A DNA stretch of 64,000 bases from Lentzea atacamensis (lineage in GTDB: Bacteria > Actinomycetota > Actinomycetes > Mycobacteriales > Pseudonocardiaceae). Within the stretch, counting starts at the first letter, position 1, and every line of letters begins with the position of its first letter. The translations under genes and the position numbers were made by a program. Below the pieces are notes generated by a model. That model saw only the letters and a program-made list of their open reading frames with translations. It did no database searches and was not told the DNA's origin. The stretch covers positions 124,001-188,000 of the forward strand of contig NZ_QLTT01000013.1 in the NCBI RefSeq assembly GCF_003269295.1, given 5' to 3'. Positions 58,435 to 62,148 of this stretch are shown piece after piece.

Positions 58435-59311
58435 GGTCGAAGAACGACGAGACGCGCGTGATCCGGTCGTCCCGCACTTCCAGCACCTGGAGGTTGAACG
58501 GCCGGAACACACCGTCGGCATCTCTCAGGTACAGCCCGTAGGCGGGCTGGCCGTTCGCTTCCGCTTCGATCATCCGCGCGCCGTGGGGGACGGCCGGGCA
58601 CTGGTTCGCGAGGTGCCACGCGACCATCTCGGGACCGCGGTACCACTGCGGGTACGGCGGCATCTCCCAGACGACGTCCTCGGTGAACATGCCGATGATC
58701 GCCGGGATGTCCTTGGCCTCGAACGCCGTCATCCACCGGTCCAGCAGCTGCTTCGCGTCCGCGGGTTCGGTGACGGAGTCCTCGGTGAGGTCCTTGAGCT
58801 GCGCGTGCGCGCGTTGCAGCGCGCTGTTGACGGCCGCGACGGTCATGTCGAGCTGGTCGGCGGTCTCGGCGGCGGTCAGCCGCAGCACGTCGCGCAGGAT
58901 CAGCACCGCGCGCTGCCTCGGCGGCAGGTGCTGGAGGGCGGCGACGAACGCGAGCCGGGTGGACTCGCGTTCGGTGACGATCGCGGCCGGGTCGGTCGGG
59001 AACGGCTCCAGCCACGGGATCTCGTGGTCCTGGGTCAGCGGGTCGTCCTGCGCCGAGCTCGTGGACAGCCCGAACGGCATCGGCCGCCGGGTCCGGCTGT
59101 CGAGCGCGGTGAGGCAGACGTTCGTCGCGATGCGGTACAGCCACGTTCGCACCGACGAGCGGCCCTCGAACTGGCCGTACGCCTTCCACGCGCGCAGGTA
59201 CGTCTCCTGCACCAGGTCCTCGGCGTCGTGCACTGAGCCGAGCATCCGGTAGCAGTGCGCGAGCAGCTCGCGGCGGAACGGGTCCGCGACGGTCGCGAAA
59301 TCCACTGTCAC
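58394..59311 (-). CDS. ECF RNA polymerase sigma factor with SnoaL-like C-terminal domain
   Basis: The 305-residue protein has sigma-70 region 2 (ELLAHCYRMLGSVHDAEDLV) and region 4 (LQHLPPRQRAVLILRDVLRL, then AAETADQLDMTVAAVNSALQ), followed by a SnoaL/NTF2-like domain (WMTAFEAKDIPAIIGMFTED). This is the SigG/SigJ-type extended ECF group, in which the extra domain takes the place of an anti-sigma factor. The GTG overlaps the stop of the WYL regulator gene by 4 nt, so both are in one operon, the regulator first. Target promoters unknown. Confidence 0.87.
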   Translation of the reverse strand: MTVDFATVADPFRRELLAHCYRMLGSVHDAEDLVQETYLRAWKAYGQFEGRSSVRTWLYRIATNVCLTALDSRTRRPMPFGLSTSSAQDDPLTQDHEIPWLEPFPTDPAAIVTERESTRLAFVAALQHLPPRQRAVLILRDVLRLTAAETADQLDMTVAAVNSALQRAHAQLKDLTEDSVTEPADAKQLLDRWMTAFEAKDIPAIIGMFTEDVVWEMPPYPQWYRGPEMVAWHLANQCPAVPHGARMIEAEANGQPAYGLYLRDADGVFRPFNLQVLEVRDDRITRVSSFFDLSLFPKFGLPSTA

Positions 59312-60270
59312 GGTTGCACTCCAATCGCGTTCTGCAGCCTGCTGATGAGTGTTCGCGCGTAGTCCCTGAGCTCGGGCGGCTCGTGCACGTCGAAGTCGAA
59401 ACCGAGGAACATGAGGTGCCACAGGATCCGGTCGGGCGTGTCGGCGCCGGTGATCATCCGGCACGAGCTGTCGTCGATCGGTTCCAGCGACGCCGACATC
59501 GGCGAGGTGCGTTCGGCGACGGTCTCGAGCGGGGCGTGGATCGTCAGCACCGCCTGGTAGGTGTAGACGTTCGAGGAGACCTGCCGGGACACGAACTCGC
59601 CGAGGCTCTCCGCCGGCGGCCGGCGGGGCGCGCAGCGGGCGGCGAGGGCGGGCTCGGTGGTGATGCGGTCGACGCGGAACGTCCGCCAGTCTTCTTTGGA
59701 CAGGTCCCAGGCGACGAGGTACCACCGGCGCCCGGTGTGCACGAGGCCTTGGGGTTCGACGAGCCGTCTCGCGGGCTCGCCTTGCGTTGGGGCGTAGGTG
59801 AACCGCAGCTGCTGGTGGTCGCGACAGGCGGCGGCGATGATCGTGAGCGTCTCCGGGTCGACCGTGGGGCCCGCGGCCGTCAGTGGAGTCGTGTGGGCCT
59901 GCAGCGCCTGCACCCGGCGGCGTAGACGGGACGGCAGGACCTGTTCGAGCTTCGTGAGCGCGCGGACCGACGTCTCCTCGATGCCCGCGATCGTGCCGTT
60001 GGCGGCGGTCCGCAGCCCTACCGCCACGGCGACCGCTTCGTCGTCGTCGAGCAGCAGCGGCGGGAGCTCCGCGCCGGCGCCGAGCTGGTAGCCGCCGGTC
60101 GCACCGGGCAGTGACGTGACGGGGTAGCCGAGGCTGCGGAGCTTGTCGACGTCGCGGCGGATCGTGCGGACGTCGACGCTGAGCCGTTCGGCGAGCTCAG
60201 GACCCGTCCAGTCGCGCCGCACCTGCAGGAGGGAGAGGAGCTTCAGCAGCCGTGCGGACGTCTCCAGCAT
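59308..60270 (-). CDS. WYL-domain transcriptional regulator
   Basis: This 320-residue protein has an HTH-11 winged helix (LLQVRRDWTGPELAERLSVD, then VRTIRRDVDKLRSLGYPV) and a WYL sensor domain (LVEPQGLVHTGRRWYLVAWD). WYL regulators sense nucleotides or small ligands and often respond to DNA damage or phage. A TAGACT -10 box ends 7 nt before the ATG at 60270, so the mRNA is probably leaderless; an ATG seven codons upstream would lie in that promoter. Divergent from the leader of the S1 gene; operon with the ECF sigma factor. Confidence 0.87.
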   Translation of the reverse strand: MLETSARLLKLLSLLQVRRDWTGPELAERLSVDVRTIRRDVDKLRSLGYPVTSLPGATGGYQLGAGAELPPLLLDDDEAVAVAVGLRTAANGTIAGIEETSVRALTKLEQVLPSRLRRRVQALQAHTTPLTAAGPTVDPETLTIIAAACRDHQQLRFTYAPTQGEPARRLVEPQGLVHTGRRWYLVAWDLSKEDWRTFRVDRITTEPALAARCAPRRPPAESLGEFVSRQVSSNVYTYQAVLTIHAPLETVAERTSPMSASLEPIDDSSCRMITGADTPDRILWHLMFLGFDFDVHEPPELRDYARTLISRLQNAIGVQP

Positions 60271-60290: not shown

Positions 60291-60320
60291 TTGCGGACAA
60301 CGGCCTGTGGTGGCTAGGGT
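60291..60320 (+). promoter_or_regulatory. Promoter for the leader peptide / S1-domain gene
   Basis: TTGCGG and TAGGGT are separated by 18 nt. The -10 box ends 7 nt before an ATG at 60328, so transcription should begin at or beside that codon. It is divergent from the WYL regulator promoter, starting only 8 bp from its -10 box. Confidence 0.55.
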
Positions 60321-60327
60321 TTGCGTC

Positions 60328-60384
60328 ATGACTGCCGGGTCGGCCTTGTGCCGTGAGCGGAACGGTTGCCCGGCCCTGACTTGA
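60328..60384 (+). CDS. Leaderless 18-residue upstream reading frame (leader peptide candidate)
   Basis: ATG at the predicted transcript start opens MTAGSALCRERNGCPALT and ends with TGA at 60382. The stop codon falls in the loop of a stable hairpin (60372-60392), so a ribosome that finishes or stalls here would change the folding of the downstream leader. Two cysteines and two arginines are the only distinctive residues. This is inference from position; no homologue is recognised. Confidence 0.4.
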   Translation: MTAGSALCRERNGCPALT

Positions 60385-60444
60385 TCAGGGCCCCTCCTGC
60401 CCCCGCGCTATCCGTTCTTCGGGATACGCGCACGGGAGAGGAGG
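60372..60444 (+). promoter_or_regulatory. Structured 5' leader with possible anti-Shine-Dalgarno
   Basis: GGCCCTGA-CTTGA-TCAGGGCC forms an 8-bp hairpin (60372-60392). CCTCCT at 60393-60398 can pair with AGGAGG at 60439-60444, the Shine-Dalgarno of the S1 gene. GCGCTATCC (60405-60413) pairs with GGATA-C-GCGC (60422-60431) between them. Such competing pairings suggest translational control. Confidence 0.45.
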
Positions 60445-60453
60445 TGATGCGCA

Positions 60454-60645
60454 ATGCTCCCCAACGTTGGTGATGTCTTTTCCGGGAAGGTCGTCTCGAC
60501 CGTCCCGTTCGGTTCGTTCATCGAGCACCCCGCCGGTGCACACGGGCTCCTGCACGGCAGGCAGGCCGAGGTCGGCTCGTCGGTGCAGGTGAAGGTGCTC
60601 GCGGTGGACGCCGAGCAGCAGCGGTTCAGCCTCGAGCTGGCGTGA
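60454..60645 (+). CDS. S1 RNA-binding-domain mini-protein
   Basis: The 63-residue protein is a single S1 domain: VGDVFSGKVVSTVPFGSFIE with the typical G-x-V and F-G-x-F RNA-face residues, then VGSSVQVKVLAVDAEQQRFS. It would bind RNA in the cytoplasm, cold-shock-protein-like in size but with an S1 fold. The ribosome site GAGGAGGTGAT is almost fully complementary to the 16S rRNA tail, implying very high translation unless masked by the leader. It has its own transcript. Which RNA it binds is unknown. Confidence 0.82.
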   Translation: MLPNVGDVFSGKVVSTVPFGSFIEHPAGAHGLLHGRQAEVGSSVQVKVLAVDAEQQRFSLELA

Positions 60646-60661: not shown

Positions 60662-60765
60662 GTGAGTTCGCGTCGGTCGTCCGGTCAACCGCTCGCGCCG
60701 AGTTCGGCGAAGCCCGATTAGGTGCGAGCGATTCGGCCGGACGACCGACTCAAAGGCGAACTCAC
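60662..60765. repeat. Long imperfect inverted repeat between convergent genes
   Basis: Arms of about 35-45 bp: GTGAGTTCGC, CGGTCGTCCGG and GCTCGC on the left meet GCGAGC, CCGGACGACCG and GCGAACTCAC on the right, with unpaired stretches between the blocks. It may be a bidirectional terminator, a small MITE-like element or a structured RNA. No reading frame in it looks coding. Confidence 0.65.
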
Positions 60766-60829
60766 CGCCGTCTCCGAAGGAGCGGCAATCAAACACAGTG
60801 CCCTGTCCGGTGCATCTCACGGCTTGCCT

Positions 60830-61690
60830 TCACGGCTTGCGGTAGTCCGCGCACTCCACGATCAGACGGTCGTGGAGGGTTCTGCGATGCCCTTGTTCCT
60901 GGGGTGCCGTACCCAGCGCGCTCGCCGGGCTCGTGATGTCGTGCAACAGCCGGTACAACACGACATCCGTTGCGGTGTAAAGCCAATCGTCCGCCTTGCC
61001 GGGCGGTGCGGCCGGTCCCAGCATGTTCTCGAACCACGCCGGGAACAGCAGGTCGTTCGCGACCGCGTCCTCGATGCGGGCGCGGATCAGCTCGCGTGCC
61101 TGGGCGACGGCCTCGTTGCCCGCCGTCTTGGCGGCGGCGTCGCCGGCGTGCTCGTTGTCGTCCGGTGCTTCCGGGCGTTGTTTGCCGACGATCGTCTGCC
61201 ACTGCTTGTACTTCTTGCGCCACAACGATTCCGCGTTGGGTGGCAACGTCGTGAGCGCTTCGGCGGCGTCGATCGCCTCGTGCGCCTGCCGGTCGTACTC
61301 GGCGACGGCCCTGCGCCTGGTCTTGGCCTCCTGCGGCGTGAACGTCTTGCGCGCGTAGGCTTCCTGGCCCGCGAGGATCCTGGCGATGAGCGGTTTGCCG
61401 ATCTCCGGCCAGGTGTCGAAGTCGGCCTTCCGCGTCTCGCCGGCCCGGACCTTCCTGTTGAGCGCCACCAGCAACCGCTCCAGCCGGTGCACGCTCTCCG
61501 CGAGCTCGGTGACCCTCTCGTTGGTCTTGGCGATCTTGCGCGTGGTGTCGCGGACCTGGTTGGTCGTGCTGAGCTTGTGCTGGGCGGCGTCGGTCTGGGC
61601 GTTGTCGATGCGGTCGCCGAGCGACTTGAGGTCCTTCTTGAGCCGCTCGACCTTGTCGTCCAGGGCCTTGACCGGGTCGATGTTCTTCAT
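60830..61690 (-). CDS. Coiled-coil protein of unknown function
   Basis: The 286-residue protein starts with about 100 residues of strong coiled coil (DDKVERLKKDLKSLGDRIDN, ETRKADFD preceded by leucine heptads) and ends in a helical domain (WFENMLGPAAPPGKADDWLY, LLHDITSPASALG). No TM segment or catalytic motif is visible. GGAGGA 7 nt before the ATG sets the start, which overlaps the stop of the upstream membrane-protein gene by 4 nt. The pair may form a membrane-linked scaffold; this is inference from gene order. Confidence 0.75.
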   Translation of the reverse strand: MKNIDPVKALDDKVERLKKDLKSLGDRIDNAQTDAAQHKLSTTNQVRDTTRKIAKTNERVTELAESVHRLERLLVALNRKVRAGETRKADFDTWPEIGKPLIARILAGQEAYARKTFTPQEAKTRRRAVAEYDRQAHEAIDAAEALTTLPPNAESLWRKKYKQWQTIVGKQRPEAPDDNEHAGDAAAKTAGNEAVAQARELIRARIEDAVANDLLFPAWFENMLGPAAPPGKADDWLYTATDVVLYRLLHDITSPASALGTAPQEQGHRRTLHDRLIVECADYRKP

Positions 61691-62148
61691 CGCAGAGTCC
61701 TCCACGCCCACCAGGCGACGCCCGCCAGCACGGCCAGGGAGGCCCAGCCGTTCGCCAATGGTGTCAGCACGACCGCGAGGAGGGCCGCCGCGGCCGCCGC
61801 CGTTCTGGCCCGCGGCTCCCAGATCCCGCGGCCGACGGGATCGACCAGGACCGCGGCCGCGACGGCCACCGCGAGCAGGACGGACAGCAGCGACCAGCCG
61901 TCGAACCAGCCGATCACCACGACGAGGGCCGCGATGGCGGTGCCCGCCGCGATCGCCCTGTTCGGGACGGTCAGGCGGGCCGCCTCGACGTCGCGGCGGG
62001 CGTGCATCACGGCCTCGACCTCTTTGGCGGTCTCGGCTAGGAGCACGGGGAAGTCAGGGCTGCCGGGTCCCGCTGCCTGCAGTGCTCGTAGTGCTGTTCG
62101 CAACGCGTGCTGGCGGTCGGCCAGGCGGGCGAACGGTTCGGCTGCCAT
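61687..62148 (-). CDS. Small multi-TM membrane protein with helical N-terminal region
   Basis: The 153-residue protein has an amphipathic N-terminal region of about 60 residues (MAAEPFARLADRQHALRTAL; ETAKEVEAVMHARRDVEAAR) and then three to four hydrophobic helices (AIAAGTAIAALVVVIGWF; LLSVLLAVAVAAAVLV; AAAAALLAVVLTPLA; SLAVLAGVAWWAW). No family is recognised. It is translationally coupled with the following coiled-coil protein, whose helices might associate with its N-terminal part. Confidence 0.72.
   Translation of the reverse strand: MAAEPFARLADRQHALRTALRALQAAGPGSPDFPVLLAETAKEVEAVMHARRDVEAARLTVPNRAIAAGTAIAALVVVIGWFDGWSLLSVLLAVAVAAAVLVDPVGRGIWEPRARTAAAAAALLAVVLTPLANGWASLAVLAGVAWWAWRTLR

Follow-up and report, generated by a model that had tools for sequence, protein, structure and literature searches.

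Antibiotic-inducible leaders of the ermC/whiB7 type join an upstream open reading frame (uORF) to alternative hairpins and to a masked Shine-Dalgarno (SD) sequence or a terminator, features that the leader analyzed here appears to share. Other close systems are described in actinobacteria. The mycobacterial polycysteine uORFs, as described in PMC9031893, are leaderless short reading frames at that end, placed upstream of the gene they regulate by attenuation. The Streptomyces amino-acid attenuators trpL, leuL, ilvL and thrL likewise have leaderless reading frames for their leader peptides, and the hairpins that follow lack a U-tract in several cases (PMC8079986). In the B12 riboswitch of M. 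tuberculosis metE, an ORF is nested in a structured leader and mutation of its start codon alters the output (PMC11260477). In mycobacteria, leaderless translation needs RTG as the first codon of the messenger, and this is also sufficient (PMC4633059).

The window studied here is a stretch of 64,000 nucleotides from Lentzea atacamensis, to which all positions refer. On its forward strand, a −35-like TTGCGG (60291-60296) is separated by an 18-nt spacer from a −10-like TAGGGT (60315-60320), and seven bases after the latter, at the ATG of position 60328, begins an 18-codon uORF, MTAGSALCRERNGCPALT (60328-60384), predicted to be leaderless with the transcript starting at 60328. Two proposed RNA stems are contained within the reading frame. 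P1 pairs GCCGGG (60334-60339) with CCCGGC (60369-60374), that is, codons 3-4 with codons 14-16, and encloses P2, a small hairpin formed by GGC (60342-60344) and GCC (60350-60352). Folding predicts a further hairpin, GGCCCTGA (60372-60379) with TCAGGGCC (60385-60392), which recurs in close relatives, holds the uORF TGA (60382-60384) in its loop and shares three bases with P1 (60372-60374). The anti-SD CCTCCT (60393-60398) is paired in the predicted fold with the SD AGGAGG (60439-60444) of the downstream gene, and the resulting SD-masking hairpin (60393-60444) is composed of anti-SD, inner CCC/GGG, apical GCGC/GCGC helix and SD. The gene itself (60454-60645, forward strand) encodes a 63-aa S1 mini-protein (Pfam S1, E 1.4e-8), the only S1 match of the genome in a short frame, since the other two belong to reading frames 538 and 748 codons long. 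Every part named by the sequence-only reading was found where it had been placed.

Directly 3′ of the S1 gene, an imperfect long inverted repeat, GTGAGTTCGC...GCGAACTCAC, was seen by eye at 60663-60767, possibly a terminator, possibly a mobile repeat. A convergent gene (60830-61711, reverse strand) encodes a 293-aa protein with a COG5_N match only, below threshold. A possible resemblance of GACUGCCGGG to 16S rRNA was put down to coincidence, since divergent members of the family described below lack this sequence.

The Lentzea-type set comprises 21 sequences, the window and 20 relatives; among the 21 relative loci, 19 were named Lentzea, another came from Nocardia sp. NRRL S-836, and the last, an unrelated MAG, was excluded. 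From the uORF start through CCTCC, 68 of 70 alignment columns are identical in this set; the S1 coding region has 133 identical columns of 192, and the spacer 60398-60434 has 10 of 37. The CCTCC after the uORF is invariant, and the same 18-codon frame is present in 20 of the 20 relatives. These 68 identical columns, together with the recurrence of start, frame, length and stop in the 108 elements described below, confirm on sequence grounds that the arrangement is more than chance.

Genome searches gave 108 elements, the window's included, with 100 distinct uORFs; many copies are closely related, and element counts are not independent trials. Of 200 genomes of the family searched at the DNA level with a 70-base core, 72 had matches (E≤0.01, chance matches counted). 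The class was represented by 394 genomes, of which 33 contained a strict pattern and 0 its reversed control. The covariance model R2, covering the 57-base uORF and built from 68 sequences, located 54 places in 50 of the 394 genomes at E≤1.8e-6, the next match being at 1.1e-4; the 54 take in one uninspected place (G362, E 1.8e-6), and the 50 genomes span eight actinomycete families. Among 336 genomes of the phylum, class members included, no further true member appeared outside the class, two weak matches there being read as chance. The window genome carries a single element (2.4e-15; next match 1.8). A search of a plasmid collection returned eight records, from Streptomyces, Streptantibioticus and Embleya, and the five copies examined, which were not used for the models, all consist of GTG, 18 codons and TGA. 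Left out of the 108 were L116, L118 and L121 (chance), L207-L213 (chance, E >1e-4), L130/L131 (duplicates), L099 (degenerate), 8 of the 78 places from the 70-base-core search and nine further Lentzea loci (L058-L066). L099 (G019:C5, near 439916-439962 of the contig) is a leader that has lost start codon and frame within repeat-rich DNA; inspection of its ORF listing by eye showed no representative payload type downstream.

The start codon of the uORF is GTG in 74 elements and ATG in 34, hence RTG in 108 of 108, a count biased toward conservation since the search query contained the start; main genes of the same loci, with starts assigned by script, use ATG in 83 cases, GTG in 11 and TTG in 5 (n=99). 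The uORF has 18 codons in 103 elements and 19 in five, and all length differences are 3-nt insertions, which L075, L120 and L132 have in the P2 loop and L138 and L140 close to codon 13. It ends with TGA in 106 elements, TAA in two and TAG in none, while TAG closes 14 of 99 main genes of the same loci (Fisher p 2e-5, a value overstated since the sequences are related). A TAnnnT −10 box lies 6-8 nt before the uORF start in 104 of 108, and the commonest bases at −36, −35 and −34 are T, T and G. Since this is the usual −10 spacing, the transcript is predicted to begin at the start codon and the uORF to be leaderless, which agrees with the proposal, made from the window's letters, that transcription starts at the uORF. 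Since 70 and 78 of the 108 elements are also open in the two alternative frames, the openness of a frame says little by itself, and the argument draws more strength from the fixed ends.

The nine variable codons have mean entropies of 1.30, 1.09 and 1.10 at the first, second and third codon positions, a similar diversity which indicates that the frame is kept and the peptide largely not. A structured RNA binding a metabolite or a protein, in which the reading frame were incidental, would agree with such little selection on the peptide, with the invariance of uORF positions 2-4, 8-11 and 15-17 in 68 sequences and with the double changes in P1 described below. Such an RNA would not explain why ATG is exchanged with GTG and TGA with TAA, why TAG is avoided and length changes only by 3 nt, nor why the predicted transcript start coincides with the RTG, and we consider it improbable. 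The 18-codon peptides do have G4, A6 and P15 in 103 of 103, with T2, A/T3 and A/V16 nearly constant, as would suit an 18-residue product that either works in trans or is an arrest peptide. Those residues are, however, largely forced by P1 and P2, and codons 7, 8, 10, 12, 14, 17 and 18 vary widely, which makes a function of the peptide itself very improbable.

P1 is paired in 98.3% of cells over the 68 sequences, while shifted registers reach 26 to 54%. Both of its end pairs show double changes from GC to AU, in 11 cells, a number that 0 of 500 shuffles attain; AU pairing is found again in the plasmid locus L253. As many pairs with double changes occur in 165 of 500 shuffles and as many pair types in 422 of 500, neither count standing above the shuffles, and the register shifted by +3 has a higher covariation score (0.098) than the true one (0.066). 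Variation in P1 is confined to the end pairs and probably reflects few independent events. P2 is invariant in 68 of 68, and since it does not vary, and hence cannot covary, it proves nothing on pairing; in Lentzea it shows a single GC-to-GU change, at 60351. A4, invariant and outside both stems, may hint at a bound partner. Covariation had been named beforehand as a check on the pairings. The CCTCCT/AGGAGG helix is constant inside Lentzea and shows no covariation there, and when a consensus fold was derived for the post-stop leaders of 23 Lentzea-type sequences, one of its 16 pairs had a double change.

The conserved block from +2 to +17, with its palindromic GCCG-GGT-CGGC, could also be read in the DNA, as the operator of a transcription factor lying over the transcript start, and in Lentzea a divergent gene (59308-60270, reverse strand, with the ATG at 60270 as its assumed start) encodes a WYL-domain regulator (Pfam HTH_11 + WYL). 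Changes in P1 are nonetheless matched 30-40 nt away, and among the 108 elements the WYL gene stands upstream of the window's copy only, with upstream sequence shorter than 1500 nt for 63 of them. Apparently it is not part of the element elsewhere, the regulator was set aside as a partner of the leader, and an operator is very improbable.

The sequence-only reading placed the uORF stop codon in a hairpin loop. The uORF part of that picture is conserved in the 108 elements; the hairpin around the stop, strong among Lentzea-type leaders and weakly above shuffles overall (p≤0.05 in 17 of 99, below the shuffle mean in 63 of 99), was rejected as a universal part. A hairpin after the stop reaches p≤0.05 in 7 of 29 S1, 15 of 50 quinone reductase, 8 of 18 glyoxalase and 0 of 9 DLH leaders. 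For the window's element (L054) alone, modelled nascent transcripts of 48-60 nt would form P1 with a probability of about 0.99, the stop hairpin then becoming dominant.

According to tblastn, the gene next to the 108 elements is an F420H2-quinone reductase/hemerythrin fusion in 50, an S1 gene in 29, a glyoxalase-like gene in 18 (19 with L129, classed by eye) and a dienelactone hydrolase (DLH) in nine, one element meeting the contig end; Pfam names were assigned for eight example payload genes. The five plasmid copies precede two quinone reductases and three glyoxalases, and the gene after the S. clavuligerus plasmid copy (NZ_CP065243.1, 148145-148201, minus strand) is annotated as a nitroreductase/quinone reductase family protein. 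Some genomes hold two elements before different genes: S1 and glyoxalase in G130, quinone reductase and DLH in G256, G499 and G330; in G515 the second element ends at the contig edge. Such pairs suggest a small shared regulon, and the payload genes are probably stress-related. The 27 stand-alone S1 mini-proteins listed have 63-90 aa, apart from one of 155.

Feedback of the S1 protein on its own leader had been envisaged, as had a response to cysteine limitation, and the S1 domain of the payload and two Cys codons in the Lentzea uORF would fit them. As a general mechanism S1 feedback is not supported, since 29 of 108 leaders precede S1 genes and 78 precede enzyme genes (one classed by eye). When 45 genomes with other payloads were searched with the mini-S1 alignment, the best match of each genome fell in a frame 506-689 codons long, which corresponds in size to ribosomal S1; among the matches listed, the others were mostly in long frames and a few in short ones, down to 147 codons. 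Cysteine fares no better: 89 of 108 uORFs are without Cys, none has more than three, and one adjacent pair occurs in the related L138/L140. The probability that the leader senses S1 or cysteine is thus close to negligible. Composition by position revealed no run or enrichment, across the 108 uORFs, of an amino acid made or charged by the product of the downstream gene.

Masking of AGGAGG by CCTCCT, also proposed for the window, is sustained by the predicted fold, in which 60393-60398 pairs with 60439-60444 and the modelled probability of an unpaired SD is 0.002, compared with 0.296 when the upstream part is shuffled. With 40 mononucleotide shuffles of the upstream part per gene as control, predicted SD accessibility lies below the control in 26 of 28 S1, 16 of 18 glyoxalase, 9 of 9 DLH and 28 of 48 quinone reductase genes with assigned starts. 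The quinone reductases divide by leader length, all 16 short leaders falling below the shuffle mean and 12 of the 32 long ones (148-364 nt) doing so. Masking is hence predicted for most short leaders, while the long quinone reductase leaders, with their SD mostly unmasked, may rely on a second promoter or on transcription attenuation. Examples of long leaders before the quinone reductase/hemerythrin fusion are L089, L090, L101-L103, L106-L109 and L153-L156.

A masked SD behind a uORF invites explanation by classical translational attenuation, in which a ribosome waiting at the uORF stop, for instance when release factor 2 (RF2) is limiting, or stalled inside the uORF covers the anti-SD and frees the SD. 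TGA and TAA are both read by RF2, and the uORFs end in no other codon (108 of 108). The geometry of the Lentzea type is also suitable: the anti-SD starts 11 nt past the first base of the TGA, and in thermodynamic modelling a footprint at the stop raises the SD accessibility of L054 from 0.003 to 0.17-0.18 and that of L067 from 0.17 to 0.33-0.53. Over the short-leader classes the modelled means hardly shift, going from 0.201 to 0.240-0.258 for S1, from 0.171 to 0.151-0.166 for glyoxalase, from 0.239 to 0.238-0.242 for DLH and from 0.060 to 0.028-0.025 for short quinone reductase leaders. Opening of the SD by a ribosome at the stop or in mid-uORF is thus, in the model, weak or absent outside the Lentzea type. 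Of the translational attenuation suggested for the window, the predicted SD masking stands and the release of the SD by a ribosome at the stop would apply to the Lentzea geometry at most; we regard attenuation of this classical kind as rather unlikely. Elsewhere the stop footprint barely shifts accessibility and so does not account for a coupling between uORF translation and the SD.

Taking these data together, we propose a family of leaders with a leaderless uORF, in which the fold inside the uORF competes with translation of the uORF and this competition is the sensing step; we consider this proposal probable, though by no means secure. Transcription would begin at the start codon of the 18-codon uORF. 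The 5′ end would then be either engaged by a 70S ribosome or folded through P1 around P2, and P1, once folded six bases from the 5′ end, would hinder 70S loading on the leaderless start. After the stop codon would come GC hairpins and, in short leaders, the hairpin masking the SD of the main gene, so that translation of the main gene would be low by default. Whether or not the uORF is translated would decide which hairpins form and hence whether the main gene is expressed, and translation of the uORF would depend on the capacity for leaderless translation and on anything that stabilizes or opens P1/P2. Sequence comparison supports the uORF frame, the predicted +1 start, P1, the predicted SD masking and the four payload types; actual translation of the uORF, competition between P1 and the 70S ribosome, coupling to the SD and the off-by-default direction are steps that we infer.

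Regarding the signal, the payloads and the literature suggest oxidative or electrophile stress, or general translation stress. In E. coli, leaderless translation is described as increasing in oxidative stress in a ppGpp-dependent manner that does not need bS1 (PMC9031893), and this report, joined to the redox and detoxification payloads, makes general stress plausible as a signal, and no more than plausible. The same 2022 review considers riboswitch control of leaderless translation unlikely except where the riboswitch forms part of the coding sequence itself, and is aware of no published example of such a strategy. The present leader could possibly be such a case, and we put this forward tentatively, as doubtful: a sensor RNA that is itself leaderless coding sequence, in which a ligand, a protein or the state of the ribosome would act on the fold of codons 3-16, set 70S loading at the 5′ end and so control diverse stress genes. 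Around 20-25% of S. coelicolor and mycobacterial genes are thought to depend on leaderless translation (PMC9031893). If the proposed competition is true, the leader shows how this translation can be controlled for each gene individually, and doubles as a ready reporter of leaderless-translation capacity. It is moreover a compact 5′-terminal element, present in eight actinomycete families and on Streptomyces plasmids before four unrelated types of genes, and it offers clues to the function of stand-alone S1 mini-proteins and of F420H2-quinone reductase/hemerythrin fusions.

The arrangement had not been recognized from the sequence alone, and the searches agree. Rfam gave no match for the window, two for the leader (E 8-9, none above the gathering cut-off) and one for the loci of 13 relatives (E 0.37; it scores 23.1 bits, where the cut-off is 49). 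NCBIfam had no match for four uORF peptides submitted with their upstream in-frame residues, and the open-licence papers searched yielded no description of the leader, nor did the parts of the surveys PMC11109978 and PMC8914203 checked by term. The leader family looks undescribed.

Compared with the ermC/whiB7-type leaders, no conserved stalling peptide was seen here, and the payloads are not ribosome-protection genes. The polycysteine uORFs are characterized, in the account given by PMC9031893, by a run of Cys codons, whereas here most uORFs contain no Cys at all, the length is fixed at 18-19 codons and a stem is located inside the ORF. The Streptomyces attenuators of PMC8079986 differ in that their leader peptides contain a run of a single amino acid and precede genes for biosynthesis or tRNA ligases, while the present leader precedes four unrelated payload families; having no amino-acid run, it lacks the defining feature of both systems. 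In metE the uORF was chosen for its SD motif and is situated at +123, inside a known aptamer (PMC11260477), whereas in the leader described here the ORF is 5′-terminal, is predicted to be leaderless and holds the whole fold.
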